This document shows, one piece after another, positions 1 through 23,390 of a stretch of 64,000 nt of DNA. The notes beneath the pieces are model-generated. The model was given only the letters and a program-made list of their open reading frames with translations, did not search any database and was not told the DNA's origin. Both the position numbers and the translations under genes were made by a program. How positions within the stretch are numbered: position 1 is the first letter of the stretch; each line of letters starts with the position of its first letter. Source of the stretch: Sphingopyxis sp. (GTDB taxonomy: Bacteria > Pseudomonadota > Alphaproteobacteria > Sphingomonadales > Sphingomonadaceae); contig JAEULK010000050.1 in NCBI GenBank assembly GCA_016793775.1, positions 89,612 through 153,611 of the forward strand, in the 5' to 3' direction.

Positions 1-533
1 TTCTGCACCGTCAGCGTGTCGGGATGGAGATTGCCGTCGAAGGCGATCGTCGTCGAATATTCGGGTCCGCTGGTCTTGCCGAACGCGTTGCGAAACGAGC
101 GCGGGCTGTCGGTATCGCCGTCGACCGACCGGATCAGCGCCTGATGGCTGTGCGTCGCGAGTTGTTCGATGGTCAGAACCTGGCTTTCGGTGCCGCCCGT
201 CATGCCCAGCGGAATATTGGCCAGCCCCGGACCCCACCCGGCCCCGACGACAAGCCTGCCGCGCACATCGGGTATCGCAAAAGTGGTGACGCCATCGCCG
301 CCATAGGTCTTGTCGATCAGCGAAAAAAGCTGGGTATAGGAGGCTTTTTGCAACAGTCGGCCATCGGCCTCCATCCACCGCGCCGGACAGGGGCCGGCCA
401 TTTCGATCATCTGGCCGATATAATAATCCTCGACCGGATCGGGCGGCGGAAGCTGCGCACCAGCGGGCATCGCCGCCATCATCGCGCCGGTCCCGATCGA
501 CGCGAGTAGGGTCCCCTTTTTATACTCCATCAT
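1..533 (-). CDS. Exported tail-collar-fold protein, class B, set I (partial)
   Basis: The 3' end lies beyond the left edge; 177 residues are visible. The start is the ATG at 533-531, with a GGGGA ribosome site a few bases upstream; a second ATG follows at once. Residues 1-27 form a signal peptide with a likely AGA-Q cleavage site. The collar core follows: a C-P motif, then TYGGDGVTTFAIPDVRGR. The segment with SPRSFRNAF and the late TLTVQ place it with the second genes of the other sets. It lies 26 nt behind the class C gene at 560-1159, so the two are probably cotranscribed. It diverges more from the consensus than the other B copies, having GPCPARW where the family has FCP.GF. A class A gene is expected beyond the edge. 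Confidence 0.85.
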   Translation of the reverse strand, partial: MMEYKKGTLLASIGTGAMMAAMPAGAQLPPPDPVEDYYIGQMIEMAGPCPARWMEADGRLLQKASYTQLFSLIDKTYGGDGVTTFAIPDVRGRLVVGAGWGPGLANIPLGMTGGTESQVLTIEQLATHSHQALIRSVDGDTDSPRSFRNAFGKTSGPEYSTTIAFDGNLHPDTLTVQ

Positions 534-559
534 GAAATTCCCCGTTATGCGCTTGTGCC

Positions 560-1159
560 TCAGGCGGGCGACGCTCCGCTCACCAGAACGCAATATTGGA
601 TGCCCAGACCCGGCGACCGGCGCTCGAACGGTTTGCCGTCGCCGCTGTTGGCGAAAACCACCGTGTCGCGGTTCATCAAATTCGATTGGGGTACGCCGCC
701 GGCGACATATTTATTCGCACCGGTCGTCGCCAGGACCGCGCCCACGGCGCGATAGGCATTGCCCGCGCCGCTCGTCGTCCGGATCAGCCCGGCATGTTCG
801 TGCCGGGGCATCTGGTTTTCGGTGAGCGTCACCATGTCGGTGCCGCCGATCTGTCCGCGCGGTCTTTCGGTCCGGCCATCGGCGACCCCCGCACCCATCG
901 AGGCCCGCCCACGCATGTCGGGCAAGGCGAAGGTCGTCGAGCCGTCGCCGCCATAGGCCGAGCCGACGGTTGCGAAGAGATCGGCATAGTCCGCGATCTT
1001 CAAAAGCTGGCCTTCGGCGGGCAGGCTTCCCGCCGGGCAGGATTTGGTGGCGAATTTGACAAGTTCGCCGCGATACTGGGCCGATGCCGGGGGAATGGTC
1101 GCGGATAAGGCTACCAATATTCCGGCGCCCCACAACAGGCCCTTCTTCTTGTCAATCAT
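560..1159 (-). CDS. Exported tail-collar-fold protein, class C, set I
   Basis: 199 residues. The first in-frame ATG is 21 nt further upstream, but the GGGGGG ribosome site fits the ATG at 1159, which gives a clean signal peptide ending PPASAQ. The collar core runs from about residue 35 (SCPAG) through AYGGDGSTTFALPDMRGR to the His-rich MPRHEHAG. The class C signature follows: ANKYV, then NLMNRDTVV, then GIQYC. Phage-tail-collar (PF07484) and MdpB-like proteins share this core, but usually lack a signal peptide. The C-terminus is SGASPA instead of the FP.RN-type ending of the other full-length copies. It heads set I and has the same promoter as the other set leaders. Molecular function is unknown. 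Confidence 0.88.
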   Translation of the reverse strand: MIDKKKGLLWGAGILVALSATIPPASAQYRGELVKFATKSCPAGSLPAEGQLLKIADYADLFATVGSAYGGDGSTTFALPDMRGRASMGAGVADGRTERPRGQIGGTDMVTLTENQMPRHEHAGLIRTTSGAGNAYRAVGAVLATTGANKYVAGGVPQSNLMNRDTVVFANSGDGKPFERRSPGLGIQYCVLVSGASPA

Positions 1160-1189
1160 CACCCATATCCCCCCGATCACACGAATGGG

Positions 1190-1217
1190 AAGCTAGAGTA
1201 AAATTTCTTGAAGTCAA
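1190..1217 (-). promoter_or_regulatory. Promoter of collar set I
   Basis: On the minus strand TTGACT (1217-1212), 16 nt, then TAGCTT (1195-1190); the -10 ends 30 nt before the start codon at 1159. The same arrangement occurs ahead of the class C gene in sets II, III and IV. Confidence 0.7.
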
Positions 1218-1242
1218 AAACTTAACGACGAAATGATGCGGA

Positions 1243-2151
1243 TCACCCTGCCGCATTCGGCAACGCCCTTGGCGTCACCAGCACCACTGCTCCATCACTG
1301 AAATAGGCGTTGCGCCGCTCGGCAATCGATAGCGTTACCGGCTTCGCCGTGCCGTCGCGCGCGACAAGGTCGGATTCGATCCGCGCCGTCCTGCCGCTGC
1401 GCAGGACCTCCTCTAGCGCTTCGCCGAACGGCGCGCGCCGCGCGATTGCCAGGAGCGCCGAAAATTTGACCCGCCGGATCGCCTCGCCGCCGACGCCTAG
1501 CATCGCCATCAGACCATCATTGGCATATTCGACCGCCTCGCGCAGCGAGATGCAGGCGTGGCCGATGCTGCCGTCGGCGTCGAGTGCGCGCAGCGCCGCG
1601 GTCCGCGCGTCGCTCGCCTCGAGCGCCGCGATCGCCTCGCTGACGTCGCGCAGGATGATCGCGCCGCCGACGGGGAGCGGCACGAGGTCGGCGTGGAGCC
1701 ACTGCCCAGGCCGTAGCAGCGACGGCAGATCGCCCGAGAAACGCTCGCGATGGTCGATCATGCGCAGGATATGGTGGAAGATCAGGCTGGTTTCGATCGC
1801 CGGAAGCGCCGTTGCCAGCGACTGGCCCACCAACGAGGTCGCGGCGGCGTCGAGCAGATCGGCCGCTGCCGGATTGACCGCCGCGATCCGCCGGTCGCGA
1901 TCGATCAGGATCAGGCCGTCGCGGACCGACTCGAGCAGCAATATCTGCGAATCCTGCAATCGCCCCGCGGTCGGCGCGCTGTCGCCCGCGCCGCCCATCC
2001 GCCGGTAGTCGTCGAGCGAGATCAGCACATGGGCGTCCTTGCCATGATGGGTCACCACGACGGGTCGACGCGCCGATTGCAGGCGCCAGCTGGCGAAGCC
2101 GCGGATGAAGTCGGCCGCCGATACGCGGTCATGGCCTTGGGTCGTTTCCAT
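1243..2151 (-). CDS. Phd/YefM-like domain fused to PAS domains
   Basis: 302 residues, starting at the ATG at 2151 behind GGAGGA; longer readings would run into the gene upstream. Residues about 8-52 (VSAADFI, RRPVVVTHHGKDAHVLISLDDYRRM) resemble the DNA-binding half of Phd/YefM antitoxins. Residues about 68-175 look like a PAS domain (ESVRDGLILIDRDRRI, NPAAADLL), and about 185-290 like a second, weaker one. No toxin gene lies beside it and no kinase or output domain follows. The layout suggests a small sensor-regulator in which PAS sensing controls a Phd-type DNA-binding head; that role is inferred. It follows the TadG-like gene with a 70-nt gap and could be cotranscribed with it. Confidence 0.75.
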   Translation of the reverse strand: METTQGHDRVSAADFIRGFASWRLQSARRPVVVTHHGKDAHVLISLDDYRRMGGAGDSAPTAGRLQDSQILLLESVRDGLILIDRDRRIAAVNPAAADLLDAAATSLVGQSLATALPAIETSLIFHHILRMIDHRERFSGDLPSLLRPGQWLHADLVPLPVGGAIILRDVSEAIAALEASDARTAALRALDADGSIGHACISLREAVEYANDGLMAMLGVGGEAIRRVKFSALLAIARRAPFGEALEEVLRSGRTARIESDLVARDGTAKPVTLSIAERRNAYFSDGAVVLVTPRALPNAAG

Positions 2152-2221
2152 AGCATCCTCCGAAACATTGCCGTTCCTTCGATGTAACGGCGCATGTCCG
2201 GCGGGTTCGCTCCGTTTCGGA

Positions 2222-3856
2222 TCAGCCGACCAGCTTGGCCTGGCCGCAGCGCAGCGCGTTGACCCGCGCATCGGCCTGTCCGACATGCAGGCCGAGCACC
2301 CCGGTGACCTGCTGCAGGACGCCGTCGAGCAGCGGCGCGGTGGCGCCGACGGTGGTCGCCACCAGCGACTTCAACGAGTTGAGATTCAGCCCGATTCCAA
2401 GGACATTACCGGTCAGGTCCATGCGATCGGCAAGCGACTTGGTTGCCCCCGCGACCAGTCCCGTGCTCGACACCGTCTTGACCGTCCCGGCGACGATATT
2501 GTCGCGCGAAAAGGCGACCGGTTTTTCCGCCAGATCGGACATAACCAGCTCGGCCTGAGCATCGACGCTGGCGAGCGGCAGCTTCAGCACCCGGGCCTTT
2601 TTGGGAGCGAGCGGACGGTTCATGTCGCGAAAGTCGCTGTCGCTGACGGTACCGATCGCCAGCGACGCAGGCGACGTCGTCACCGCGAGCTTGACCGCTT
2701 CGGGTGCGTTCGTGCCGCAATCGATCGACGCGATGCGCGCCGAGGCTGACCCGAGTTCGGCAAGCACCGGCAATTCGATTGCCGCCACCGGCGTCGAGAT
2801 CTTCGCATCGAGGCGCAGGCGAACCTGCGCGGTGCGCACGACGACCTGATTGTCGTCGGTCACCGCGATCAGCGGCGAATTTGCCGGCGGCTCGCCGACG
2901 ATCAGCGCGAGCTTGAGCTGGCTCCCGCCCGGCAGCGCGCCGACGAGGTCGAGATCAACCTGGCGATCGGCCGAGCCGAGAATCAGCATCGTGCGGAGCA
3001 GGCTGAGCAGGTTGACGCGCACCGGGTTCGCGGCATCGACGCGCACGCTTGACGACCGTGGCCCCAGGTCGATCGCCGATGCCGGCACCAGTTGGGTCGC
3101 GTTGGCGCGTGCGGCCATATGCTCGACCAGCGGCGCGACGGCGGGATCTGCCGAGGCGGCGAGTGCGGACAGCATCTGCGGCATCGTCACCTGGCTGTCG
3201 AGCGTCTGGCCGAAGGTCAGTGCTTCGACCCCGATCTCGCTGCGCAGCGCGTCCGAAAATTTGAGCAGGTCGACGTCGGCACTGGCGAGCGCGTTGTAAT
3301 CCATCACCGACAGGTTGAGCTGGCTGCCGGTCAGCGCCGACAATATGGCATTGGGCACTCCGCCGTTGACCGCCGCGACGCGCGACCCGAGCGAAAAGGC
3401 GGCATAACCGCGCCGCGCCCCGGTCGCCGAAGCGCTGATCGTCTTGCTGTCGGCCTCGGTCAAGATGCGGCCGAAGAATAAAGGGTGCTCTCGCGTGAGC
3501 ACGATCCGCACCGCGTTGGGCGACGCACCGCCGGCGGTGAAGCGCCGCTCGGCGGCGACGCCAGCGTCGGCGATATAGCTGCCCCGGGTCAGCGACGCGA
3601 TGGCGATGCCGCAGTCGCAATTGGCGGCGATGATGCGTTCGGCCGCCGCGCGTTCCTCGCCGGGCTTGGCCGCCGCCGCCATCGCCGCGGCATCGGCGAT
3701 CCCCTGCAATTTGCGGCGGTCGAGGTGGAGCGAGCCGACATCGACCGCGAGCGCCGCGGCGCCGATCAGCATCACCATGCCAAAGGCGGCGGCGATGCTG
3801 ATGCTGGCGCGATTGTCGCCGGACAGCCGCGCGAAAAGGCGAAACAGGCGCGTCAT
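2222..3856 (-). CDS. TadG-like pseudopilin-related membrane protein
   Basis: 544 residues. A short cytoplasmic N-terminus (residues 1-20, basic) leads into one transmembrane segment (about 20-42, rich in Ala, Gly and Val). VDVGSLHLDRRKLQGIADAAAMAAA follows, split here by the membrane boundary; this is the hallmark of TadG/TadE-type proteins of Flp pilus loci. The rest is a large domain expected in the periplasm, with few recognisable motifs and one late cysteine. The ATG overlaps the stop of the TadE-like gene by four bases, so the two are translationally coupled. The other tad genes (flp, cpaA-F, tadBC) are not in the window. TadG-like assignment is by N-terminal pattern and neighbour; no von Willebrand motif was found. 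Confidence 0.72.
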   Translation of the reverse strand: MTRLFRLFARLSGDNRASISIAAAFGMVMLIGAAALAVDVGSLHLDRRKLQGIADAAAMAAAAKPGEERAAAERIIAANCDCGIAIASLTRGSYIADAGVAAERRFTAGGASPNAVRIVLTREHPLFFGRILTEADSKTISASATGARRGYAAFSLGSRVAAVNGGVPNAILSALTGSQLNLSVMDYNALASADVDLLKFSDALRSEIGVEALTFGQTLDSQVTMPQMLSALAASADPAVAPLVEHMAARANATQLVPASAIDLGPRSSSVRVDAANPVRVNLLSLLRTMLILGSADRQVDLDLVGALPGGSQLKLALIVGEPPANSPLIAVTDDNQVVVRTAQVRLRLDAKISTPVAAIELPVLAELGSASARIASIDCGTNAPEAVKLAVTTSPASLAIGTVSDSDFRDMNRPLAPKKARVLKLPLASVDAQAELVMSDLAEKPVAFSRDNIVAGTVKTVSSTGLVAGATKSLADRMDLTGNVLGIGLNLNSLKSLVATTVGATAPLLDGVLQQVTGVLGLHVGQADARVNALRCGQAKLVG

Positions 3857-4269
3857 TCGGCGGGCAGTTCGAAGGTCGCGCGGGCGCTGATGATATCGCC
3901 GGGCATGGGGACGAACGTCGATCGCAACAGGCTCGTTTCGGGAACATGATAGGCAAGCTCGACGGTGACCGCATCGGTCGTTTCGGACACCAGCACGCTG
4001 CGCAGTTCGGTACGATAGCCGCCGACGCCGGTCATGCTGCGGTCGATGGCGCGGATAGCGACGGCGCGGCGGTCGGCGGCGTCGAGTCCGGTGATCGCAG
4101 CGCGCGCGCCATCGTTCGCCGCCTGCTGCACGCTGTGCGCGAGCAGGAAATATTGGCCATAGATCAGGATGCCGAGCAGCAGCATGAGGAACAGCGGCAG
4201 CAAGATCGCGGTTTCGATCATCGCGGTGGCGCGCGTGTTTTCGGCGAAGAGCGTCGGGTGCTTTGTCAT
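3853..4269 (-). CDS. TadE-like pilus assembly protein
   Basis: 138 residues. The basic N-terminus with TRATAMIETAILLPLFLML is the classical TadE pattern: a Glu five residues into a hydrophobic helix, as in type IV pilin-like proteins. QQAANDGARAAI follows in the stretch after the membrane. TadE proteins are minor pseudopilins of the Flp (tight adherence) pilus. It is first in a two-gene unit with the TadG-like gene (4-nt overlap), with the Phd-PAS gene next downstream. Such pairs often occur in alphaproteobacteria away from the main tad locus. Confidence 0.82.
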   Translation of the reverse strand: MTKHPTLFAENTRATAMIETAILLPLFLMLLLGILIYGQYFLLAHSVQQAANDGARAAITGLDAADRRAVAIRAIDRSMTGVGGYRTELRSVLVSETTDAVTVELAYHVPETSLLRSTFVPMPGDIISARATFELPAE

Positions 4270-4568
4270 GCGCCGATCATGCGCGGCGGACGTAACCGGA
4301 CGCGCCAGCGAGGTGCGATAAATGAATTGCCGAATTTACATAATTTCGACGGCGGTCAGGCCGATCGGGCGGACGAGCGGAAATCGAGGAAATCCAATGG
4401 TTTGGGTCGGATTGACTTTGCGCAATCCGATCGGATTACCCGCTGCTGAACGCCCATCGGCGCCGCAATGTCCGATTTTACGGGAAATCGGGGGGCGGGG
4501 CGGGGGATGGAATGAAAAGGGCCGCGCCTTTGCAGGCGCGGCCCGAATTCGATGCGGCTCGCCGCGTG
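4270..4568. other. Intergenic region between tadE-like gene and set II
   Basis: About 300 nt without a credible gene. It is less GC-rich near 4320-4440. It contains the inverted repeat TCGGATTG/CAATCCGA (4407-4414 and 4423-4430, 8-nt loop), with a further GATCGGATT copy just after, and the terminator of set II at 4511-4544. The repeat could be an operator for the tadE-like unit, which starts 140 nt away and reads away from it; this is unproven. Confidence 0.5.
4511..4544 (-). terminator. Intrinsic terminator of collar set II
   Basis: Read on the minus strand: a perfect 10-bp stem GGGCCGCGCC/GGCGCGGCCC (arms 4544-4535 and 4528-4519) with a TGCAAA loop, followed directly by TTTTCATT. It lies 24 nt after the stop of the class A gene. 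Confidence 0.85.
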
Positions 4569-5192
4569 TCAGTTGCGCGAGGGGAAAATTCCCTGAAGCG
4601 CGATACACGCCTGAATCGCCAGATAGGGCTGCAGGTTCGAAACGGGCTGGCTGTTGCCCGCCGGCTGGACCTGAACCATCGGGCGGTCCATGAAATTGCC
4701 CGACGGCGCGGTCGCATTTTCATAGCTGTTGTTGCTCGACACGCCGAAAGCATTGCCATTCGGCGATGTCGAGTTGGCGGCGGCATTGGCGGTCTGGATC
4801 GCACCGCGATGATCATGTTTGAACAGGTTATTGGTGGTCAGCGTTACCGTCTCGCTGCCGACCTGTTCACCGAGCACGACCGGCGTCAGTCCCGGCCCGC
4901 TCCCCTGGTTGATGGCGGAGCGCCCGCGCAGGTCGGGCAGCCCGAAGGTCGTCTGGCCATTGCCGCCATAGGTGGTGCCGAGCAGCGAGAAGAGCGCCGT
5001 GTTGGTCGAGATCGCCAATATCTGACCCGCCGCCGCCGTATAGCCGCGCGGGCAGAAATTGGTCGGCATCAAAATGATCTCACCCAGATAGGGCTGCGTC
5101 GCCTGCGCCATGACCGGCGCCGACCAGGACAGCGATGCCGTGCCGACGGCAAGTCCGATTGTGAAAGTGCGAATGGCCCCGTGTTTTTTCAT
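4569..5192 (-). CDS. Exported tail-collar-fold protein, class A, set II
   Basis: 207 residues from the ATG at 5192, which sits 5 nt behind GGAGG; a longer reading would run into the B gene. The signal peptide ends at about residue 29 (APVMAQ). Class A features: mature start TQPYLGEI, FCPRGY, TTYGGNGQTTFGLPDLRGR, GSGPGL, KHDHRGAIQTANAAAN, SSNNSY, and the end CIALQGIFPSRN, which is the family ending. There are only two cysteines, one in FCP and one in ACIA, well placed for a disulfide after export. It is third and last in its set, 41 nt after the B gene, and is closed by a strong terminator. Partner and ligand are unknown. Confidence 0.9.
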   Translation of the reverse strand: MKKHGAIRTFTIGLAVGTASLSWSAPVMAQATQPYLGEIILMPTNFCPRGYTAAAGQILAISTNTALFSLLGTTYGGNGQTTFGLPDLRGRSAINQGSGPGLTPVVLGEQVGSETVTLTTNNLFKHDHRGAIQTANAAANSTSPNGNAFGVSSNNSYENATAPSGNFMDRPMVQVQPAGNSQPVSNLQPYLAIQACIALQGIFPSRN

Positions 5193-5233
5193 GCCCGCCT
5201 CCAAAATATCAAAAAGCCGCCGACTGCGCGCGA

Positions 5234-5833
5234 TCAGCTGCGCGACGGGAAGATGCCCTGGGTCGCGATGCAATAGCGCGTGACCAGAAACGGCGAAATA
5301 TTGGGGATCGCGTCGCTGCCCCCGGTTTTCTGTACCGTCACCGTCTGCGCATTCATGCTGCCGCTGTAGCTGGCGACGTTGGTCGTATATTGATTGTCCG
5401 GCGTCACCGCGAACGAGTTACGGAAGGATTTGGTGTCGTTGGCGTTGACGTTGACCGTCTGGAACACCGCCTGGTGCACATGCTGCGGCATCTGGTTGAT
5501 GGTCAGCGTTTGCGATTCGACGCCGCCGACCTGGCCCAGAGTATAGGGGGAAAGCCCCGGCCCCATTCCCTGGCTTATCGCCAACCGGCCGCGGAAATCC
5601 GGCAGCGCGAAAGTCGTCTGACCGTTACCGCCGTAGGTGGTGCCCAAAAGCGAGAAGAGCGCGGTATTCTGGGCGATGGACAATATCTGCCCACTGGTGT
5701 CCGCGAAGCCGGCCGGGCAGAAATTGCCGCCAAAATGAATGATCTGGCTGAGGTAATAATCCTGCGCCATCGCAGGCGTCGCGATCCCGGTCGCCAGTGC
5801 CGTCGCCAGCGCGAAAGAAATTTTGTGCCGCAT
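5234..5833 (-). CDS. Exported tail-collar-fold protein, class B, set II
   Basis: 199 residues from the ATG at 5833 behind GAGGGGA. Signal peptide to about residue 24 (TPAMAQ). Class B features: mature start DYYLSQII, FCPAGFADTSGQIL, FALPDFRGR, MPQHVHQAVFQT, DTKSFRNSFAVTPDNQY, VTVQKTG, then ISPFLVTRYCIATQGIFPSRS. The middle region replaces the SSNNSY element of class A with the SFRNSF-DNQY block, so B proteins probably differ from A mainly in the exposed part. Middle gene of its set, 47 nt after C and 41 nt before A. Exactly two cysteines. Confidence 0.9.
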   Translation of the reverse strand: MRHKISFALATALATGIATPAMAQDYYLSQIIHFGGNFCPAGFADTSGQILSIAQNTALFSLLGTTYGGNGQTTFALPDFRGRLAISQGMGPGLSPYTLGQVGGVESQTLTINQMPQHVHQAVFQTVNVNANDTKSFRNSFAVTPDNQYTTNVASYSGSMNAQTVTVQKTGGSDAIPNISPFLVTRYCIATQGIFPSRS

Positions 5834-5880
5834 CGTCTGTCCCCTCAAAATCCGCTGGTCGTCATATCCACCCGACCGAA

Positions 5881-6498
5881 CTAGTTGCGCGGCGGAAAAA
5901 TCCCCGCGCTCACCACGCAATATTGGATGGCCAGCGCCGGCGGGCGATGATCATAGGGCAAGCCCTCTCCCGCGTTGCGGATGATCACCGTGTCGCGGTT
6001 CATCAAATTCGATGCGGGCGTCGTGCCGCTGACATATTTGTTCGCCGGGGTTATGCCAAAAGCGTTGCGGAACGCGCGCGGCGAATCGCCCGCTGCGGTC
6101 GATGCCTGGACGAGCGCGACATGCTCGTGGCGCGGCATCCGGGTTTCGGTCATCGTGTTGGTTTCGGTGCCGCCGACCTGCCCGGTCGTATAGGGCGACA
6201 GGCCGGGTCCCTGTCCGGGATGGATCGGTGCGCGCCCGCGCAGGTCGGGCAACGCGAAGGTCGTTTGCCCGTTGCCGCCATAGAAGGTTCCGTAGAGCGA
6301 GAAGAGCGCGGTATTCTGCGCGATCGATAGCAAGGCGCCATTGGCGTTGAGGGTATTGCGCGGACAGAAATTATAGGGCGTTTCGATGATCATCCCGAGA
6401 TAATAGTCCTGCGCCGCCGCAGGTGCCGTGAATCCGGCGGTTCCCGCCGCCAGCACCGTCGTCGCCATCAAAAGCCGCGATTTGCGTCCGAAAGCCAT
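5881..6498 (-). CDS. Exported tail-collar-fold protein, class C, set II
   Basis: 205 residues from the ATG at 6498, preceded by a GGGGGG ribosome site. Signal peptide to about residue 29 (APAAAQ). Class C features: DYYLGMII, FCPRNTLNANGALLSIAQN, FALPDLRGRAPIHPGQGPGL, GGTETNTMTETRMPRHEHVAL, ANKYVSGTTPASNLMNRDTVI, LAIQYCVVSAGIFPPRN. The SPRAFRNAF stretch is shared with class B, which may reflect recombination between classes. It leads its set and is controlled by the promoter at 6531-6558. Confidence 0.9.
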   Translation of the reverse strand: MAFGRKSRLLMATTVLAAGTAGFTAPAAAQDYYLGMIIETPYNFCPRNTLNANGALLSIAQNTALFSLYGTFYGGNGQTTFALPDLRGRAPIHPGQGPGLSPYTTGQVGGTETNTMTETRMPRHEHVALVQASTAAGDSPRAFRNAFGITPANKYVSGTTPASNLMNRDTVIIRNAGEGLPYDHRPPALAIQYCVVSAGIFPPRN

Positions 6499-6530
6499 GG
6501 CTTCGCCCCCCTGTCCCTATGAAGGTGAGA

Positions 6531-6558
6531 AAGCTAACCGCTTTTTAACCAATGTCAA
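6531..6558 (-). promoter_or_regulatory. Promoter of collar set II
   Basis: On the minus strand TTGACA (6558-6553), 16 nt, TAGCTT (6536-6531); 32 nt then separate the -10 from the start codon at 6498. The -35 matches the sigma-70 consensus fully. Confidence 0.75.
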
Positions 6559-6609
6559 ATGGCGGGGCCAGCTTCGCGGTCTTTGCATCGCCAAACGTCG
6601 AAAAACCTG

Positions 6610-6641
6610 CAAAAACAAAAGCCGCGACCTTGCGGCGCGGC
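6610..6641 (-). terminator. Intrinsic terminator of collar set III
   Basis: On the minus strand a GC hairpin (GCCGCG 6641-6636, CGCGGC 6626-6621, 9-nt loop) is followed directly by TTTTGTTTTT. It lies 53 nt after the stop of the class A gene at 6695 and 50 nt before the -35 of set II. Confidence 0.75.
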
Positions 6642-6694
6642 GTTTGTCGGGTTGTCCCGGCGAAGGGCCTGGCCGAGTCGTCGGCCCGGCGATG

Positions 6695-7318
6695 TCAGTT
6701 GCGCGGCGGGAAAATCCCCTGCGTCGCTATACACCACAACACCGTGTTATAGGGGGGGCGCACCGAAAAGGGGACCGAACTGCCCGCGGTCTGCACCTGA
6801 ACCATCGTCTGGTTCATCAGATTGCCCGTCGGGTCGCCGCCGCCGCTGAGGTAGCTGTTGTTCGACGAGATGCCGAAAGCCGCGCCGCTGGCGGTGGTGC
6901 TATTGGCGACGGCGTTGGCGGTCTGGATCGCCGAGCGATGCGTGTGGCCCGGCATTTCGGCGATCGCCAAGCTATGCGTTTCCGCGCCGCCCTGCTGACC
7001 GAGAACATAGGGCGACAGTCCAGGGCCCGAACCCTCGTTCACCGCCATGCGGCCACGCATGTCGGGAAGCTGGAAAGTCGTGGTGCCGTTGCCGCCATAG
7101 GTGACGCCGATCAGCGAAAACAGCGCGGGGTTCGTTTGAATGGCAAGAAGCTGCCCCTGCGCCGCCGCATAGCCGCGCGGGCAAAAAGTGAAGCCAACCT
7201 GAATCATCTGGCCGACATAAGGATCGACCTGTGCCGATGCCGACGGCGCCAGCGCGAAGGCGCTGCTGCCCGCAAGCGCCGCCATCGTGATTTTCCTGAA
7301 TGTCCCCGTGCGTGTCAT
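6695..7318 (-). CDS. Exported tail-collar-fold protein, class A, set III
   Basis: 207 residues from the ATG at 7318, behind GGGAGG with 5-nt spacing. Signal peptide to about residue 29 (PSASAQ). Class A signature: DPYVGQMI, FCPRGYAAAQGQLL, VTYGGNGTTTFQLPDMRGR, GSGPGLSPYVLG, TANAVANST, SSNNSY, LWCIATQGIFPPRN. It differs from the set II and set IV copies at the N-terminal edge of the mature chain (QVDPYV versus QATQPYL). Last gene of its set, 41 nt after B, followed by a terminator. Confidence 0.9.
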   Translation of the reverse strand: MTRTGTFRKITMAALAGSSAFALAPSASAQVDPYVGQMIQVGFTFCPRGYAAAQGQLLAIQTNPALFSLIGVTYGGNGTTTFQLPDMRGRMAVNEGSGPGLSPYVLGQQGGAETHSLAIAEMPGHTHRSAIQTANAVANSTTASGAAFGISSNNSYLSGGGDPTGNLMNQTMVQVQTAGSSVPFSVRPPYNTVLWCIATQGIFPPRN

Positions 7319-7359
7319 TTACGCCTCCCAAATATCAAAAAGCCGCCAATTGCGCGCAA

Positions 7360-7968
7360 TCAGTTGCGCGACGGGAAAACCCCCGCGGTCGCGATGCAAT
7401 AGCGCGTGACCAGGAAGGGCGACATCATCGGCGCCACGGTCGACGTCACATCGCCCGCCCCCTGCACCGTGATCGTTTCGCTGTTCATGGTGACGTCGAG
7501 ATTGGTCGAGTTCGTATATTGATTGTCGGCCGTGACCGCGAAGGCGTTGCGGAACGACTTGTTGTCGTTCGCATTCGACGTCGAAGTTTCGAAAACGCCC
7601 GTGTGGCTGTGAATGGGAAGATTGGGGAGCGTCAGCGTTACCTGTTCACTGCCCCCAATCTGCCCTTGCGTATAATTCTGGAGGCCCGGCCCCTGCCCCA
7701 GGCTGATCCCCATCCGGCCGCGCAGATCGGGCAGATTAAAGGTGGTGACGCCATTGCCGCCATAGGTGGTGCCGAGCAGCGCGAACAACGCCTGGTTCTG
7801 GGCAATCGGGAGGACCTGGCCGTTGGTTTCCTGAAAGAACTTCGGGCAATAAGTGCCGCCGACTTCGATCAACTGCCCGATATAATAATCCTGCGCCACC
7901 GCCGGCGTTGAAGCCGCGACGGCGAGCGCGCTCGCCGCGCCGAGCGATAAAATCCTTGTATGCCGCAT
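7360..7968 (-). CDS. Exported tail-collar-fold protein, class B, set III
   Basis: 202 residues. Two ATGs are possible (7974 and 7968). The second is chosen because it stands 7 nt from GGGGAG and gives the same MRH start as the other class B proteins. Signal peptide to about residue 26 (TPAVAQ). Features: DYYIGQLI, YCPKFFQETNGQVL, NLPDLRGRMGISLGQGPGL, LPIHSHTGVFET, DNKSFRNAFAVTADNQY, MSPFLVTRYCIATAGVFPSRN. Middle gene of its set; 60 nt after the C gene. Confidence 0.9.
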   Translation of the reverse strand: MRHTRILSLGAASALAVAASTPAVAQDYYIGQLIEVGGTYCPKFFQETNGQVLPIAQNQALFALLGTTYGGNGVTTFNLPDLRGRMGISLGQGPGLQNYTQGQIGGSEQVTLTLPNLPIHSHTGVFETSTSNANDNKSFRNAFAVTADNQYTNSTNLDVTMNSETITVQGAGDVTSTVAPMMSPFLVTRYCIATAGVFPSRN

Positions 7969-8028
7969 CGTCATACTCCCCTGAAATCCCTCAAAGCGCC
8001 GCTTACGCCGCGACGCCGCTCAAACGCG

Positions 8029-8640
8029 TCAGTTCCGCGACGGAAAGATGCCGGTCGTCAGCACGCAATATTGGATCGCCAGATAGGGCGGCCGATGATC
8101 ATAGGACTGGTTGCCGCCCGTCTGTCCCAGGACGATCGTCCCGCGCTCCATCAGCTGCGACGCCGGCGTCGTGCCGGTGATATATTTGTTCGCCGGCGTG
8201 GTGCCGAAGGCGTTGCCGACCGGTGTCGTCGAAGTGCCGGCCGCGCTGCTGGCTTTGAGCAAGGCGATATGCTCGTGCTTCGGCATCGTCGCGAGCGTCA
8301 TCGTATTGGCCTCGGTCCCGCCCGTCTGGCCCAGAGTGCGCGGCGTCAGGCCGAGGCCGTTTCCAGTATGCATCGTATAGCGTCCGCGCACGTCGGGGAC
8401 ACCGAAAGTGGTGACCCCGTCGCCACCATAGGTGGTGCCATACAACGCATAGAGCGCCGACTCATTGGCAATCGACAGCAGCCGGCCATCGGCCGGAACC
8501 GTGCCGACCGGGCAGAAAGTATTGGCGAGCTTCATGACCTCGCCCAAATAGAAATCCTGCGCCGCCGCCGGTGCCCCGAACCCTGCGGTCGCCGCGATCG
8601 CCGTCGTCAGATACCAACGCGATTTACGAACGAAAGCCAT
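8029..8640 (-). CDS. Exported tail-collar-fold protein, class C, set III
   Basis: 203 residues from the ATG at 8640, preceded by GGGGGA; the frame is open further upstream but would cross the promoter. Signal peptide to about residue 28 (APAAAQ). Class C signature: DFYLGEVM, FCPVGTVPADGRLLSIAN, GVPDVRGRYTMHTGNGLGL, GGTEANTMTLATMPKHEHIAL, ANKYITGTTPASQLMERGTIV, LAIQYCVLTTGIFPSRN. Leader of its set. Confidence 0.9.
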   Translation of the reverse strand: MAFVRKSRWYLTTAIAATAGFGAPAAAQDFYLGEVMKLANTFCPVGTVPADGRLLSIANESALYALYGTTYGGDGVTTFGVPDVRGRYTMHTGNGLGLTPRTLGQTGGTEANTMTLATMPKHEHIALLKASSAAGTSTTPVGNAFGTTPANKYITGTTPASQLMERGTIVLGQTGGNQSYDHRPPYLAIQYCVLTTGIFPSRN

Positions 8641-8672
8641 CGCCTCATCCCCCTGCCCAAATAGTGATGCGC

Positions 8673-8700
8673 ACGCTATTCTGTTTTCGGCGAATGTCAA
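8673..8700 (-). promoter_or_regulatory. Promoter of collar set III
   Basis: On the minus strand TTGACA (8700-8695), 16 nt, TAGCGT (8678-8673); 32 nt before the start codon at 8640. Confidence 0.7.
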
Positions 8701-8720
8701 ACCGCGATGCATATATATTT

Positions 8721-8754
8721 GAAAAAATTGGACCATTGCGGCCGAAGGGCCGCA
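8721..8754 (-). terminator. Probable terminator of collar set IV
   Basis: On the minus strand the stem TGCGGCC/GGCCGCA (8754-8748 and 8743-8737, CTTC tetraloop) is followed nine bases later by a run of six T. The T-run is offset, so it is weaker than the terminators of sets II and III. It is 114 nt after the class A stop at 8869; an imperfect GC-rich hairpin around 8772-8802 also lies between. Confidence 0.5.
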
Positions 8755-8868
8755 TCACCGACACGAAAGAACAATGACCCCACCCCTGCGGGCGTGGCCA
8801 TTATTGAGTATCCCCTGTAATCTGTCGGTCACAATATTATAGCGACCATCGGTATCGCCGCTCCGCAA

Positions 8869-9492
8869 TCAATTGCGCGGTGGATAAATACCCTGCAATG
8901 CGACGCACCATTTCAGCGCGATGTAGGGCGGGCGGTTGTTCACCGGCTGCGATCCGCCGGTCGGATTCACCTGGATCGTCGAACTCGCCATCAGATTGCC
9001 CGAGGGCGTGGTTCCCGACTGGAAACTGTTGTTCGACGACACGCCGATCGCATTGCCGTTCGCGGAGGTGCTGTTCGCGTTCGCATTGGCCGTCTGCAAC
9101 GCAGCGCGGTGATCGTGCGGCGGCAGGTTGGCGGGGATCAGCGTCGTCGTTTCGCTGCCAGCCTGCTCGCCGATCGAATAAGGCGAAAGCCCCGGGCCGT
9201 TCCCCGGGGTGTTGGCGGCGCGTCCCGACAGGTTCGGCAAGGCGAAGGTCGTTCGCCCATCGCCGCCATAGTTTGTGCCAAAGAGCGAAAAAAGTGCGGT
9301 ATTTTGCGAGATCGGAAGGATCTGGCCCGCTGCCTGTGCCCAGCCCAGCGGGCAGAAATTGAAGCCGACCTGCATCAGCTCGCCCAAATAGCTTTGCGTC
9401 GCGTCCGCCGAAGCCGGCGTGGCATAGGCCAGCGCCGAGCCGCCGGCCGCCAGAGCCATGGTGAAGTTCCGGATTGCTGATTTGCCTGTCAT
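8869..9492 (-). CDS. Exported tail-collar-fold protein, class A, set IV
   Basis: 207 residues from the ATG at 9492, with GGAGG upstream. Signal peptide to about residue 29 (TPASAD). Class A signature: TQSYLGELM, FCPLGWAQAAGQIL, TNYGGDGRTTFALPNLSGR, GNGPGLSPYSIG, HDHRAALQTANANAN, SSNNSF, LKWCVALQGIYPPRN. The usual LPDLRGR is LPNLSGR here. Third gene of the set, 43 nt after B. Confidence 0.9.
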   Translation of the reverse strand: MTGKSAIRNFTMALAAGGSALAYATPASADATQSYLGELMQVGFNFCPLGWAQAAGQILPISQNTALFSLFGTNYGGDGRTTFALPNLSGRAANTPGNGPGLSPYSIGEQAGSETTTLIPANLPPHDHRAALQTANANANSTSANGNAIGVSSNNSFQSGTTPSGNLMASSTIQVNPTGGSQPVNNRPPYIALKWCVALQGIYPPRN

Positions 9493-9535
9493 ACCCCGCC
9501 TCCAAAATCTCGATATTCGATCGTGTCGTCGCCGG

Positions 9536-10150
9536 TCAGTTACGCGAAGGGTAGAGACCCAGCAGCGCGATGCATGTGCGGGTCACCAGAAAGGGCGACA
9601 TATTGTTGAACGCCACGCCGTCGGTGCCCGTTTTCTGCACGGTCACGGTCTCGGCTTGCAGAGATCCGTCGAAGGCCGGGCCGGTGACCGGTATTTTATA
9701 TTGATTGTCCGGCGTCACCGCGAAGGAGTTGCGAAAGGACTTATTGTCGTTGCCGGCGGTAGCGACCGACTGAAGCGACCCCGGATGGACGTGAGCCGGC
9801 AGCGTGTTGAGGGTCAATGTCACGGTTTGCGTGCCGCCGATCTGTCCCTGATTATAGAAGCTGCCGCCCGGCAATTGCCCGTCGCCGATCACCATGCGTC
9901 CGCGAACATCGGGGAGTGCGAAGGTTGTGGTGCCGTTGCCGCCATAGGTCGTGCCGAGCAGCGAGAAAAGCGCCTGATTCTGGGCGATCGACAGAATCTG
10001 CCCGCTGGCGTCGGCAAATCCGCGCGGGCAATAGGTCCCGGCAACCTCGATCAACGACCCCATAAAAAATTGCTGCGCCGCCGCCGGCGAGGCGGAAAAC
10101 GCCATCAGCCCCGAAGCGGCGGCCACCGCCAATGATTGTCCATGCCGCAT
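9536..10150 (-). CDS. Exported tail-collar-fold protein, class B, set IV
   Basis: 204 residues. The ATG at 10150 is preferred over 10156, since it lies 7 nt from GGGGAG and gives the class B MRH start. Signal peptide to about residue 26 (SPAAAQ). Features: FFMGSLI, YCPRGFADASGQIL, FALPDVRGRMVIGDGQLPGG, LPAHVHPGSLQS, DNKSFRNSFAVTPDNQY, TVTVQKTG, MSPFLVTRTCIALLGLYPSRN. The usual GQGPGL turn is replaced by GQLPGGSFYN. Middle gene of its set; 49 nt after C. Confidence 0.9.
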   Translation of the reverse strand: MRHGQSLAVAAASGLMAFSASPAAAQQFFMGSLIEVAGTYCPRGFADASGQILSIAQNQALFSLLGTTYGGNGTTTFALPDVRGRMVIGDGQLPGGSFYNQGQIGGTQTVTLTLNTLPAHVHPGSLQSVATAGNDNKSFRNSFAVTPDNQYKIPVTGPAFDGSLQAETVTVQKTGTDGVAFNNMSPFLVTRTCIALLGLYPSRN

Positions 10151-10199
10151 TGCCATACTCCCCTAAAGCCCCTCAACCGCCCGGCGGACCGGTCGCGCC

Positions 10200-10808
10200 C
10201 TAATTCGTCGACGGGTAGATTCCCTGCGTGACGACGCAATATTGCAAGGTCAGCGTCGGCGGCAGGTGGCTCCACGGCTGGCTGCTGCCCGTGCTGCCGA
10301 CGATCACGAGATCGCGGTTCATCAGCTGCGATGCCGGAACCGCGGCCGACGCATATTTGTTCGCCGGGGTTGTCGCCAGGACATTGCCGACGGGGCTTGT
10401 CGAATCGGCCGCTTGCGACGTGGTGCGGAACAACGCCGTATGTTCGTGCCGCGGCATGTTGCCGAGCGTCATCGTATTGGTTTCGGTGCCGCCAACCTCG
10501 CCCAGAACCCGATTGGTCAATCCCGGCCCCTGCCCCTCATGCAGCGACACGCGGCCGCGATAATCGGGAACGGCGAAGGTGGTTTGCCCATCGCCGCCAT
10601 AGGTCGTACCGATCAAGTTAAACAGCGTGCTTTCCTGCGCGATGCTCAGCAGGGCGCCATTGGCGGCGACGGTTCCGATGGGGCAGAAGGTATAGCCCGT
10701 CCGGAGAATCTGCCCGATATAATTGTCCTGAGCCGCCGCTGGATTCGCCACCCCCGAAAAAGCGAGTACCACCGCCGTCGCGGATATCCCAACCGATCTG
10801 CGCAACAC
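10200..10808 (-). CDS. Exported tail-collar-fold protein, class C, set IV
   Basis: 202 residues. It starts with GTG at 10808, six bases after GGGGGGA; there is no ATG in a suitable place. Signal peptide to about residue 26 (NPAAAQ). Class C signature: DNYIGQIL, FCPIGTVAANGALLSIAQES, AVPDYRGRVSLHEGQGPGL, GGTETNTMTLGNMPRHEHTAL, ANKYASAAVPASQLMNRDLVI, LTLQYCVVTQGIYPSTN. First gene of the rightmost set, and the start of the whole array. Confidence 0.9.
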   Translation of the reverse strand: MLRRSVGISATAVVLAFSGVANPAAAQDNYIGQILRTGYTFCPIGTVAANGALLSIAQESTLFNLIGTTYGGDGQTTFAVPDYRGRVSLHEGQGPGLTNRVLGEVGGTETNTMTLGNMPRHEHTALFRTTSQAADSTSPVGNVLATTPANKYASAAVPASQLMNRDLVIVGSTGSSQPWSHLPPTLTLQYCVVTQGIYPSTN

Positions 10809-16596: not shown

Positions 16597-16920
16597 TTGC
16601 GTAAATTGAGTGCCAGAATATCGGCGATTGCGGCTTCGGTGACGGGCCTGCTCCATGCGACGGCCGCCTACGCCCAAAGCACCCTGCCCGACCCCGAAGG
16701 CTCGGGCGCGATCGTCAATGCCGTTCGCTGGCTGCAGGGCACGCTGCTCGGCACCGTCGCCACCGTCGTCGCGATCATCGCGGTCGCCTCGGTCGGTTTC
16801 CTGATGCTGACCGGGCGGATCAACTGGCGCTATGGCGCCACGGTGATCCTCGGTTGCTTCGTCCTGTTCGGCGCCGCGAGCATCGTCGCCGGCATCCAGT
16901 CGACCTCCGGCGGGCTCTAG
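16597..16920 (+). CDS. virB2: VirB2/TrbC-type pilin subunit
   Basis: 107 residues. It starts with TTG at 16597, 6 nt after GGGGGG. A long signal peptide ends at TAAYAQ (about residue 27). Two hydrophobic helices follow (about 48-70 and 80-100) with a short basic loop, GRINWRYG, between them, the classic VirB2/TrbC layout. The processed product would form the T4SS pilus or be a channel component. First gene of a compact operon; virB3 starts 9 nt after its stop. No virB1 transglycosylase precedes it. Confidence 0.88.
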   Translation: MRKLSARISAIAASVTGLLHATAAYAQSTLPDPEGSGAIVNAVRWLQGTLLGTVATVVAIIAVASVGFLMLTGRINWRYGATVILGCFVLFGAASIVAGIQSTSGGL

Positions 16921-16929
16921 GACCAGGCG

Positions 16930-17214
16930 ATGAGCGACCTCGACCGCGACCCCCTGTTTGTGGCGCTGACGCGCCCGCAGATGTTCGCGGGCGTCACCTA
17001 CAGCTTCTTCGTGATCAACGCGATCGCGGCGACCGAGCTGTTCCTGATTTTCCGTTCGCTCTGGGCGCTGTTCGGCGCGCTGCTGATCCATCTGGTCGGC
17101 GCGCTGCTGTGCCTGCGCGAACCGCGCTTCTTCGACATCTGGCTGACCAAGGTCAGCCGCTGTCCGCGCGTGACCAATTTCAAGACCTGGCAGTGCAACT
17201 CCTATCGGCCCTGA
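16930..17214 (+). CDS. virB3: VirB3-type inner-membrane protein
   Basis: 94 residues. The N-terminal DPLFVALTRPQMFAGVTY is the VirB3 signature. Two close hydrophobic stretches (about 20-38 and 41-60) follow, then EPRFFDIWLTK. VirB3 works with VirB4 and is fused to it in some systems. Here the two overlap: the probable VirB4 start lies 22 nt inside the end of virB3. Confidence 0.92.
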   Translation: MSDLDRDPLFVALTRPQMFAGVTYSFFVINAIAATELFLIFRSLWALFGALLIHLVGALLCLREPRFFDIWLTKVSRCPRVTNFKTWQCNSYRP

Positions 17215-19565
17215 AGCCCCGCCCCGCGGCGAGTGACGGCGAGGTGCCGGCGGGCAAGCATCTGCCCTATGCCCGCCATGTCGATGACCATACGATCGAG
17301 ACGCGCGACGGCCTGTTGATGCAGGTCATCCGCCTGCGCGGCATCCTGTTTGAAACCGCCGACAGCGACGAACTCAACTACCGTAAACTGCTGCGCGACG
17401 CGATGCTGCAGGCGATCGGATCTTCGCGCTACGCGCTCTATCATCATGTCGTGCGGCGCGAGGCGAGCATCGAACTCGACGGCGAATTCGGCGACGATTT
17501 TTCGGCGGGCCTCGACGAACGCTGGCAGGCACGGCTCGCGATCAAGCAGCTCTATCGCAACGACCTCTACCTCACGCTCGTCCGCCGCCCGGCGCCCGGG
17601 CGGATGGGACTGCTCGACCGGCTTTCGGGCTGGCTCGGCTCGACCGGGCAGGATTATCAGGCGACGGTGGCGCAGGAACTACGCCTGCTCGACACCGCGC
17701 GCGAGGCGCTGATGGCGCAGCTCGGCAGCTACCAGCCCGAACTGCTCGGCCTCTATGACAGCGACCAGGGGCTCTGCTCCGAGCCTCTCGAATTTTTCGG
17801 CCAGCTTTTCTCGGGCGAACCGCGCCGTCTGCTCGCGCCGCATCAGGATGCGGGCGACTATCTGCCCGACCGGCGGATCAGTTTCGGTGCCGAGACGATC
17901 GAGCTGGCTCCCGTCGGCAATGCGGCACGCCGCTTCGTCGGCATCGTCGCGATCAAGGATTATCCCGCGTCGACCGCGACCGGCATGTTCGACGAACTGC
18001 TGCGCCTGCCGTTCGAGATGGTGATGGCGCAGAGCTTCGCCTTCGTCGATCGCCAGCCCGCGCTCGGCAAGATGAACCTCGCGCTGCGCCGGATGCGTTC
18101 GACCGAGGATGAGGCGCTCAGCCTGCGCGACCAGCTGGCGCGCGCCAAGGACGATGTCGCCGCGGGCCGCGCCGCATTCGGCGAGCATCATATGACGATC
18201 GCGGTGCATGGCGCGACCGAGGCCGAGGTCAGCGCCAATATCGCCGACGTCCAGGCGTCGCTCGCCGAACTGGGGATCATCTCGGTGCGCGAGGATATCG
18301 CGCTCGAGCCAACCTTCTGGTCGCAGTTTCCCGGAAATTTCAAATATATCGTCCGTCGCGGCATGGTTTCCTCGGCCAATTTTGCCGGCCTCGCCAGCGG
18401 GCATAATTTCGCTGCGGGGCGCGCCGATGGCAATGTCTGGGGCAAGGCGGTCACGGTGTTCGAGACCACCGCCGCAGGCCCTTATTATTTCAACTTCCAT
18501 CAGGGCGACCTCGGCAACTTCACCGTCATCGGCCCGTCGGGGTCAGGCAAGACCGTCGTCGTCAATTTCCTGCTCGCACAGGCGCGCCGCTTCGATCCGC
18601 GTATCATTTTCTTCGACAAGGACCGCGGCGCCGAGCTGTTCATCCGCGCGATCGGCGGGCGCTACGACCAGCTCCGCCCCGGCATCGCCAGCGGACTCAA
18701 CCCGCTCCAGCTCGACGACACGCCGGTCAACCGCCAGTTCCTGATCGACTGGCTCGCGCAACTCGTGGGCGGCGCGAGCATCGAGGAAATGGCGCAGATC
18801 AAGGACGCGGTCGACGCAAGCTATGCGCAGCCGCCCGCGCACCGCCGCCTGCGCCACGTGGCCGAACTGTTCCGCGGCGGCGCCCGCCCGCGCGCCGACG
18901 ATATGTGGTCGCGGCTGCGCCCCTGGTGGGGCGACGGCGAACGCGCCTGGCTGTTCGACAATGTCGAGGATCTGACCGACATGGACAGCCCGACCATAGG
19001 TTTCGACATGACCGTCATCCTCGACGATGCGGCGATGCGCACCCCGACGATGATGTACCTGTTTCACCGCGTCGAGGAACGGCTGACCGGCGAGGAAACG
19101 ATCATCGTCGTCGACGAAGGCTGGAAAGCGCTCGACGACGATGTCTTCGTGCGCCGGATCAAGGATTGGGAAAAGACGATCCGCAAAAGGAACGGAATCG
19201 TCGGTTTCGCAACGCAAAGCGCGCAGGACGCGCTGGAGAGCAAGATCGCCAGCGCGCTGATCGAGCAGGTCGCGACGCAGATCTTCATGGCGAACCCCAA
19301 GGCGCGCGCGACCGACTATATGGACGGCTTTGGGCTGACCGAGCATGAGTATCAACTGATCCGCACCCTGCCCGACGATGCGCATTGCTTCCTGGTCAAA
19401 CATGGCAATGACAGCGTCGTCGTGCGGCTCAACCTGTCGGGCGAGCGCGACCTGCTGACCATATTGTCGGGCCGCGAGCGGACGGTACGGTTGCTCGATC
19501 AGATCCGCGAGACCGCGGGCGATGATCCGGGCGTGTGGATGTCGCGTCTGCTGGCGGTCGCATGA
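17193..19565 (+). CDS. virB4: VirB4 ATPase of type IV secretion
   Basis: 790 residues if it starts at GTG 17193, inside virB3; the reading frame is open far upstream, so the start is not certain (CTG 17187 or 17211 are alternatives). The N-terminal domain (ARHVDDHTIETRDGLLMQVIRL) is of CagE/TrbE/VirB4 type. Walker A GPSGSGKT is near residues 447-454, and Walker B IIVVDEGWKAL near 638. This is the inner-membrane-bound ATPase that powers pilus assembly and substrate transfer. Its stop overlaps the virB6 start (ATGA). Confidence 0.93.
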   Translation: MQLLSALKPRPAASDGEVPAGKHLPYARHVDDHTIETRDGLLMQVIRLRGILFETADSDELNYRKLLRDAMLQAIGSSRYALYHHVVRREASIELDGEFGDDFSAGLDERWQARLAIKQLYRNDLYLTLVRRPAPGRMGLLDRLSGWLGSTGQDYQATVAQELRLLDTAREALMAQLGSYQPELLGLYDSDQGLCSEPLEFFGQLFSGEPRRLLAPHQDAGDYLPDRRISFGAETIELAPVGNAARRFVGIVAIKDYPASTATGMFDELLRLPFEMVMAQSFAFVDRQPALGKMNLALRRMRSTEDEALSLRDQLARAKDDVAAGRAAFGEHHMTIAVHGATEAEVSANIADVQASLAELGIISVREDIALEPTFWSQFPGNFKYIVRRGMVSSANFAGLASGHNFAAGRADGNVWGKAVTVFETTAAGPYYFNFHQGDLGNFTVIGPSGSGKTVVVNFLLAQARRFDPRIIFFDKDRGAELFIRAIGGRYDQLRPGIASGLNPLQLDDTPVNRQFLIDWLAQLVGGASIEEMAQIKDAVDASYAQPPAHRRLRHVAELFRGGARPRADDMWSRLRPWWGDGERAWLFDNVEDLTDMDSPTIGFDMTVILDDAAMRTPTMMYLFHRVEERLTGEETIIVVDEGWKALDDDVFVRRIKDWEKTIRKRNGIVGFATQSAQDALESKIASALIEQVATQIFMANPKARATDYMDGFGLTEHEYQLIRTLPDDAHCFLVKHGNDSVVVRLNLSGERDLLTILSGRERTVRLLDQIRETAGDDPGVWMSRLLAVA

Positions 19566-23389: not shown

Positions 23390-23390
23390 G

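Follow-up and report, generated by a model that had tools for sequence, protein, structure and literature searches.

Collar-fold fibres and the locus described here

Among the systems closest to the one described here, gp12 and gp37 of phage T4 have the collar fold and are homotrimeric parts of the virion. In gp12, an HxH motif (His445 and His447) binds zinc on the threefold axis (PMC3004832), and in gp37 a needle is inserted into the collar, to which the end of the chain returns (PMC6957217). In the virophage DSLV2, three consecutive tail proteins are reported to co-purify as a 1:1:1 heterotrimer and, in this form, to bind lipopolysaccharide on the cyanobacterial cell surface (PMC12724248). 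Here we describe a bacterial locus of collar genes in a 64,000-nt stretch of the 3.9-Mb draft genome of Sphingopyxis sp. (assembly GCA_016793775.1; contig 10 of the draft, JAEULK010000050.1, positions 89612-153611), the whole of which is referred to as the window. The genes recur as sets of three classes, designated C, B and A. As in DSLV2, three distinct genes of the collar/needle type are consecutive in each set; DSLV2 is viral and has one set, whereas the sets of the window are bacterial, number four and encode proteins with signal-like starts. The window proteins share with gp12 and gp37 the collar fold and the HxH motif of the trimer axis, and with gp37 an insertion between the collar core and the C-terminal segment (PMC3004832, PMC6957217); they differ from both in that gp12 and gp37 are homotrimers and virion parts. 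On balance, each C-B-A set probably encodes one Sec-exported C:B:A heterotrimeric fibre, a reading that supports the hetero-oligomer or fibre proposed in the initial annotation of the window.

Organization and products of the four sets

A PF07484 search of the whole draft genome identified 12 collar places, all above the curated score and all within one stretch. Eleven are genes of the window, all on the minus strand (Table 1), and each of the eleven proteins scores above the curated Pfam threshold for PF07484 (Collar), with E values of 1e-17 to 2e-24. Their places and the C-B-A order at 10808-8869, 8640-6695 and 6498-4569, with C-B at the window start, agree with the initial annotation. The twelfth gene (L013:16874-17476:-), located just beyond the window start, is the class A gene of the fourth set, which had been listed as C-B only and is complete. 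The locus thus contains four complete sets, each read C, B, A on the minus strand. Intergenic gaps within these sets are 26-54 nt (41-54 nt in sets 1-3), and sets 1-3 are 3.4 kb apart from set 4, with the genes for TadE, TadG and a PAS-domain protein in between. Across the sets of the genus, gaps are 26-61 nt within sets and 107-228 nt between contiguous sets.

Table 1. Positions of the collar genes and other features in the window (or in L013 where indicated).
Feature	Position	Strand	Remarks
Set 4, class A gene, outside window	L013:16874-17476	-	
Set 4, class B collar protein (truncated at window start)	1..533	-	PF07484 E 3.5e-18; full gene L013:17519-18145
Set 4, class C collar protein	560..1159	-	PF07484 E 6e-20 (frame to 1180)
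PAS-domain protein	1243..2286	-	PF08448; homologues in G026, G031
TadG-like gene	2222..3856	-	PF13400, PF09977
TadE-like gene	3853..4269	-	PF07811
Set 3, class A collar protein	4569..5192	-	PF07484 E 2e-24 (longer frame)
Set 3, class B collar protein	5234..5833	-	PF07484 E 4e-24 (longer frame)
Set 3, class C collar protein	5881..6498	-	PF07484 E 1.6e-21
196-nt gap, set 2 / set 3	6499..6694	-	
Set 2, class A collar protein (modelled)	6695..7318	-	PF07484 E 1.5e-22
Set 2, class B collar protein	7360..7974	-	PF07484 E 5e-21
Set 2, class C collar protein	8029..8640	-	PF07484 E 1e-17 (longer frame to 8736)
228-nt gap, set 1 / set 2	8641..8868	-	
Set 1, class A collar protein	8869..9492	-	PF07484 E 4e-22; A clade
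Set 1, class B collar protein	9536..10156	-	PF07484 E 7e-23; B clade
Set 1, class C collar protein	10200..10808	-	PF07484 E 7e-20; GTG start; C clade
VirB-type type IV secretion cluster (VirB2, B3, B4, B6, B8, B9, B10, B11)	16597..24392	+	Pfam; VirB3 by eye and homology

The 12 proteins are 199-208 aa long. All begin with a basic and hydrophobic signal-like segment, judged from hydropathy and by eye without a dedicated predictor, which ends in A-x-A in 11 proteins and in V-x-A in 3A (proteins are named by set and class); this leader suggests export past the inner membrane by Sec. Each contains two cysteines, except for 4A with three, and 10 of the 12 end in an IFPSRN-like C-terminus. The class signatures noted previously are broadly valid but have exceptions: SSNNSY is present in two A proteins, is replaced by SSNNSF in one and is absent from 4A, whereas SFRN is found in all four B proteins and DNQY in three of them. 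ANKY is conserved in all four C proteins, and 3C additionally contains AFRNAF, which resembles the B motif. Three window collars tested against NCBIfam gave no match. A role in anti-phage defence was considered and rejected, as PADLOC gave no match for three collars and the PAS-domain protein.

Comparison of the regions of these proteins indicates that the collar is common to all, and that class identity sits in the tip insert and at the C-terminal end. When the classes within a set are compared, an average of 49% of the collar core is shared, with 26% for the tip insert and 36% for the C-terminal segment; the corresponding values for the same class across sets are 54, 49 and 49%. The class-defining regions correspond to the parts of gp37 that form the collar-inserted needle and the returning end (PMC6957217). 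An AlphaFold2 model of 2A, the one of the twelve proteins modelled, has a mean predicted local distance difference test score (pLDDT) of 77.8, with 93-96 in the collar and 53-65 in the tip. Using this model, Foldseek identified the tail fibre of cyanophage A-1(L) (8kec, 8.1e-5) and T4 gp12 (5iv5, 4.2e-4; 1ocy, 1.4e-3), and a profile built from 72 relatives gave a match to 1ocy at 1.8e-6, with HMMER aligning the HxH motif to that of gp12. Judged from the model of 2A, the fold is that of the collar of gp12/gp37-type fibres; the 'tail-collar/MdpB fold' of the initial annotation thus holds for the collar but is not MdpB-specific. The HxH motif follows the collar in all 12 proteins of the locus.

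Phylogeny of the three classes

Trees were constructed from 128 collars and, with IQ-TREE, from 50 of these (78 of the 128 being left out). Left out of the 128-protein tree are five frames whose domains are partial or multiple, together with all 13 frames of L049, L050, L058-L062, L064, L089 and L090. The C, B and A proteins of the genus form three clades in both trees, with ultrafast bootstrap values of 100, 100 and 99, respectively, in the 50-collar tree, for which a set-wise grouping, named in the initial annotation as an outcome that would refute it, was rejected (delta log-likelihood 2297; approximately unbiased test, p-AU 4.6e-7). Collars were found in 5 of 35 other genomes of the genus (12 in G031, 6 each in G026 and G001, and 1 each in G013 and G027), and the layout in G031 is the same nine-plus-three arrangement as in the window genome. 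The four set-bearing genomes contain 2, 2, 4 and 4 sets, and all 12 sets have all three classes, as expected from the earlier claim that the classes stay together. These data indicate that the three classes are older than the sets and have been retained in all of them.

Within each class clade, set 2 of the window pairs with set 1 of G026, set 3 with set 2 of G026 and set 4 with set 4 of G031; set 1 clusters with the first set of each of G031 and G001. This set-by-set pairing across genomes points to whole-set duplication before the split of these species, and the duplication of whole sets suggested by the initial annotation is thus borne out by the class clades within the genus. All 12 pairs of matched genes have a ratio of non-synonymous to synonymous substitution rates (dN/dS) of 0.15-0.38, indicating purifying selection on the collar genes. 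Selection on the number of sets, which had also been proposed, is not demonstrated by these data, although set number does vary.

In other genera, the exported family is represented by one gene in G145 and G311; two in G108, G170, G211, G271 and G257; three in G194, G164, G047 and Tateyamaria; and four plus a fragment in G279. The initial annotation had named classes occurring singly and in random order in related genomes as an outcome that would refute it; outside the genus this is partly seen, with one to four genes per genome.

Distribution of collar trios

The tandem arrangement of three collar genes is not confined to this genome but is widespread elsewhere under the database label 'tail fiber protein' (e.g. 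in Comamonas, Aminobacter, Deinococcus and Spirosoma); no description of the bacterial trio was found in the open-licence PubMed Central literature. A class A query against plasmid records matched 149 places in 69 records. The best 20 records show three places each, and the remaining 49 average fewer than three. In each of the eight regions opened, three collars are found in a row, the third in Deinococcus gobiensis being annotated only partly; the class A query does not always match the third gene, matching the first in Ruegeria.

With a three-collar query, trios of separate genes accounted for 73 of 80 kept loci, spread over many bacterial phyla and one archaeal metagenome-assembled genome (MAG), but this query is biased towards trios, and a sample of the taxonomic class searched with a single-domain model gives a fairer count. 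In that sample, collars were detected in 33 of 240 genomes, including the window genome. With the window's own rows left out, there are 13 clusters of three, two of three plus a short fragment and two of two, i.e. 15 of 17 clusters of at least two collars hold three; one cluster of three lies in the family of the window genome, and 31 further collar places are single. Every one of the 222 proteins in 74 trios carries the HxH motif, a count that omits L123 (two trios) and L171 (one frame, split match), and best hits among the trio loci keep their position in 178 of 222 cases.

These 'tail fiber protein' trios resemble the sets of the window in having three collar genes in a row with HxH. Unlike the window proteins, they are mostly approximately 175 aa long and, judged by length, lack a leader, and each locus usually contains a single trio (among those read, one in all except L123, which has two). 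Two genomes of one genus, G352 and G480, contain four and three dispersed trios, respectively, so that a genome also comes to have more than one set without duplication in tandem. The neighbourhood of the leaderless trios is recurrent, containing a GNAT-type acetyltransferase, giant cadherin- or Ig-repeat proteins and a small DUF6916 protein (L014, L017, L093-L095, L176 and the trio loci). The acetyltransferase is annotated in six of the eight opened regions, and the neighbour cluster containing it touches at most 65 of 87 loci and that of the giant repeat proteins at most 38, both upper bounds since the clusters are impure (single linkage, with other frames joined in).

Single-chain fusions of three collars

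Proteins with three collars in a single chain were found in eleven genomes (L058, L059, L061, L062, L096, L097, L098, L100, L101, L120 and L134; L060 is the same gene as L097 and was left out), most of them with the three-collar query. All eleven have a C-terminal segment ahead of the first collar, and no such segment was detected behind the third; the leading segment is weak (2-5 bits) in L098, L100 and L061. This is the pattern expected of a closed ring cut at a new point, and the fusions look like circular permutants of a closed three-part ring.

Five fusions are approximately 500 aa long and combine a signal-like start with a sorting end at the C-terminus, identified in L096 as PEPxxWA-CTERM (E 1.2e-13) and in the others by eye, and all three of their units keep HxH. 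Five others contain RTX-like repeats (two tested, three by eye), and one has a Hint domain; in this last protein, from an Asaia MAG (L134:2462-4636), the permuted three-collar part is joined to a Hint_2 domain. The fusions resemble the window sets in presenting three collars as a unit that, judged from these ends, would be exported or secreted, and differ in being one chain, in having a short tip insert or none and in being permuted.

Proposed assembly and alternative explanations

Under the heterotrimer reading, the C, B and A proteins would leave the cytoplasm by Sec, and the three chains would come together in a 1:1:1 ratio, with the six histidines of their three HxH motifs holding a metal ion between them. 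The C-terminal segment of each chain would pack against the next chain to give a closed pseudo-threefold ring, and the variable, class-specific, interlocked tip would bind a surface ligand. The four sets would then represent four fibres with different tips, and the locus a small repertoire of surface or secreted adhesins; for the collar proteins, we infer a function in adhesion. One fibre per set is proposed because the three genes are co-directional and tightly spaced and all sets keep the classes, because the three-collar fusions are permuted in 11 of 11 cases, HxH is conserved and the tips are class-specific, and because trios prevail among collar clusters and the virophage heterotrimer provides a precedent.

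Several observations weigh against this reading. When the window classes were compared with positions 1-2-3 of the general trio, best hits fell on the same position in 16 of 36 cases, with 12 expected by chance (the position agrees for 9 of 12 hits of class A, 7 of 12 of class C and 0 of 12 of class B), which gives no clear support for a homology of C, B and A to positions 1, 2 and 3. The fusion units likewise give no clean 1-2-3 order, and a simple order of this kind is not supported. HxH is absent from 6 of the 11 fusions, namely those with RTX-like or Hint ends. The AlphaFold2 model of the L096 fusion is poor (mean pLDDT 50.4, predicted template modelling score 0.51), the ring is not seen in it, and Foldseek gave no match at 1e-3 or better. 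In G113, frames of three (552 aa) and two collars are joined head to tail and are not permuted, so direct fusion also happens. The one- and two-gene exported versions in related genera mean that a heterotrimer is not obligatory for the family, and in other genera the exported genes of one genome mostly cluster together (as in Tateyamaria, G047, G164 and the pairs, and less clearly in G194). Assembly from three parts may accordingly have evolved repeatedly, or gene conversion may have blurred the classes there. As a separate observation, G113 (L065-L067), which belongs to the same order, contains 18 collar domains in several clusters.

Among the other explanations, it is unlikely that each of the three classes forms an exported homotrimeric fibre of its own and folds alone, as phage collar proteins do, with co-transcription as the only link between them. 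The phage collar fibres gp12 and gp37 are homotrimers (PMC3004832, PMC6957217), and both the one- and two-gene versions and the genome-wise grouping of most trios in other genera accord with this explanation. Class identity, however, resides in the tip and the C-terminal segment, parts that interlock in this fold, no class is missing from the 12 sets and permuted three-collar fusions exist, all of which speak against it.

The collars could also be surface parts of the adjoining VirB-type type IV secretion system, replacing a pilus-tip adhesin such as VirB5, an explanation that we regard as rather improbable. The VirB cluster is chromosomal and begins 6 kb beyond set 1; its genes fall in the range VirB2-B11, and neither VirB5 nor VirD4 was found among the frames scanned up to 37.5 kb of the window. 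VirB4 lies approximately 7 kb from the collars in all four set-bearing genomes of the genus and near the glutathione S-transferase (GST) gene in none of the 20 set-free genomes in which that gene was placed, and in G194, of another genus, an exported trio is located between virB2 and the virB3-virB4 genes of a VirB operon (L071:3853-11783). Sharing one island, however, explains the linkage within the genus. Among 16 genomes chosen for exported-type collars, VirB4 is near the collars in five (four of one genus and G194), whereas 11 have no nearby VirB4 on the same contig, and four of these have no VirB4 at all (the leaders of G177 being unchecked). A close VirB4 is present in 129 of 296 genomes of the order, including that of the window. 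Of the 30 genomes in the order sample that have both VirB4 and collars, 3 have them within 10 kb of each other, where 0.26 would be expected; two of these 3, however, had prompted the test, and the collar of the remaining one, G078, lacks a signal peptide. The linkage is treated as a lead, with a partner role possible. Ahead of the G194 trio are virB2 and a gene whose 214-aa product begins with a signal-like segment and matches no Pfam family; a relative of this product is encoded beside the collar pair of G257 (L087:6187-6828).

Polymerization of the collars as a pilus-like heteropolymer, in which the C-terminal segment of one subunit completes the next along the filament, would fit the permuted fusions, with which an exchange of segments between neighbours is compatible, as well as the many copies and the exported subunits. 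We consider it very doubtful, since an open polymer predicts no closure such as that in the fusions, all eleven of which have three units and start with the ring-closing segment (most having been found with the three-collar query), and since no usher, chaperone or sortase family was detected in the nearest neighbours scanned. That a decayed prophage or tailocin left tail fibre genes that then multiplied is hardly credible, for although the fold and PHROG tail families match, the proteins have signal-like starts and their genes are under purifying selection, no phage structural family was found in 8 neighbouring proteins (in line with the absence of other phage genes noted initially), none of the 277 records matching 2A, the one query used, among 50,697 phage records covers 80% of it, and free-standing trios are widespread.

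Neighbouring genes

The TadE- and TadG-like genes were examined as candidate parts of the collar system and rejected. The GST gene, which together with a CaiB gene lies beyond set 1, was placed in 20 set-free genomes of the genus (G002-G021), with collars beside it in none; TadG, the Tad gene searched for there, lies within 1 kb of it in 13 of these 20 genomes. We therefore judge the Tad genes to be older tenants of the locus, flanked by the collar sets, and the PAS-domain protein is judged likewise to be an older tenant outside the collar system. Beyond set 4, two acyl-CoA dehydrogenase genes are followed by genes for a TonB-dependent receptor, FecR and a sigma factor.

Other gene contexts were observed elsewhere. 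In one group of relatives (L083, L085, L082 and L092), one to four collars are flanked on one side by the gene of a PAS hybrid histidine kinase and on the other by two genes whose products, approximately 500-550 aa long, gave no Pfam match above the cut-off; the L083 stretch also contains smpB and recA. The collar pairs of G257 (L087:6876-10985) and G108 (L086:6362-8186) adjoin sulfotransferase genes, and the G257 region also encodes an ABC exporter and a Transglut_core3 protein, a combination that we take to be suggestive of a lasso-peptide-type cluster.

Implications

More broadly, the locus may belong to a system of heterotrimeric collar fibres that is bacterial, non-viral and widespread, whose composition of three parts is betrayed by naturally occurring, circularly permuted single chains and that, in this genus, became Sec-exported and expanded into a four-set repertoire of tips, possibly as a recognition fibre of the VirB system; this wider reading is put forward tentatively, as one that may well not hold in full. 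The tandem 'tail fiber protein' trios of many phyla look like phage debris. If each set does encode one heterotrimer, an entire class of bacterial proteins that are now misannotated would become testable, the four-set locus would provide naturally varied tips on a shared collar, and the permuted three-in-one fusions would offer ready-made single-chain versions for structure work.

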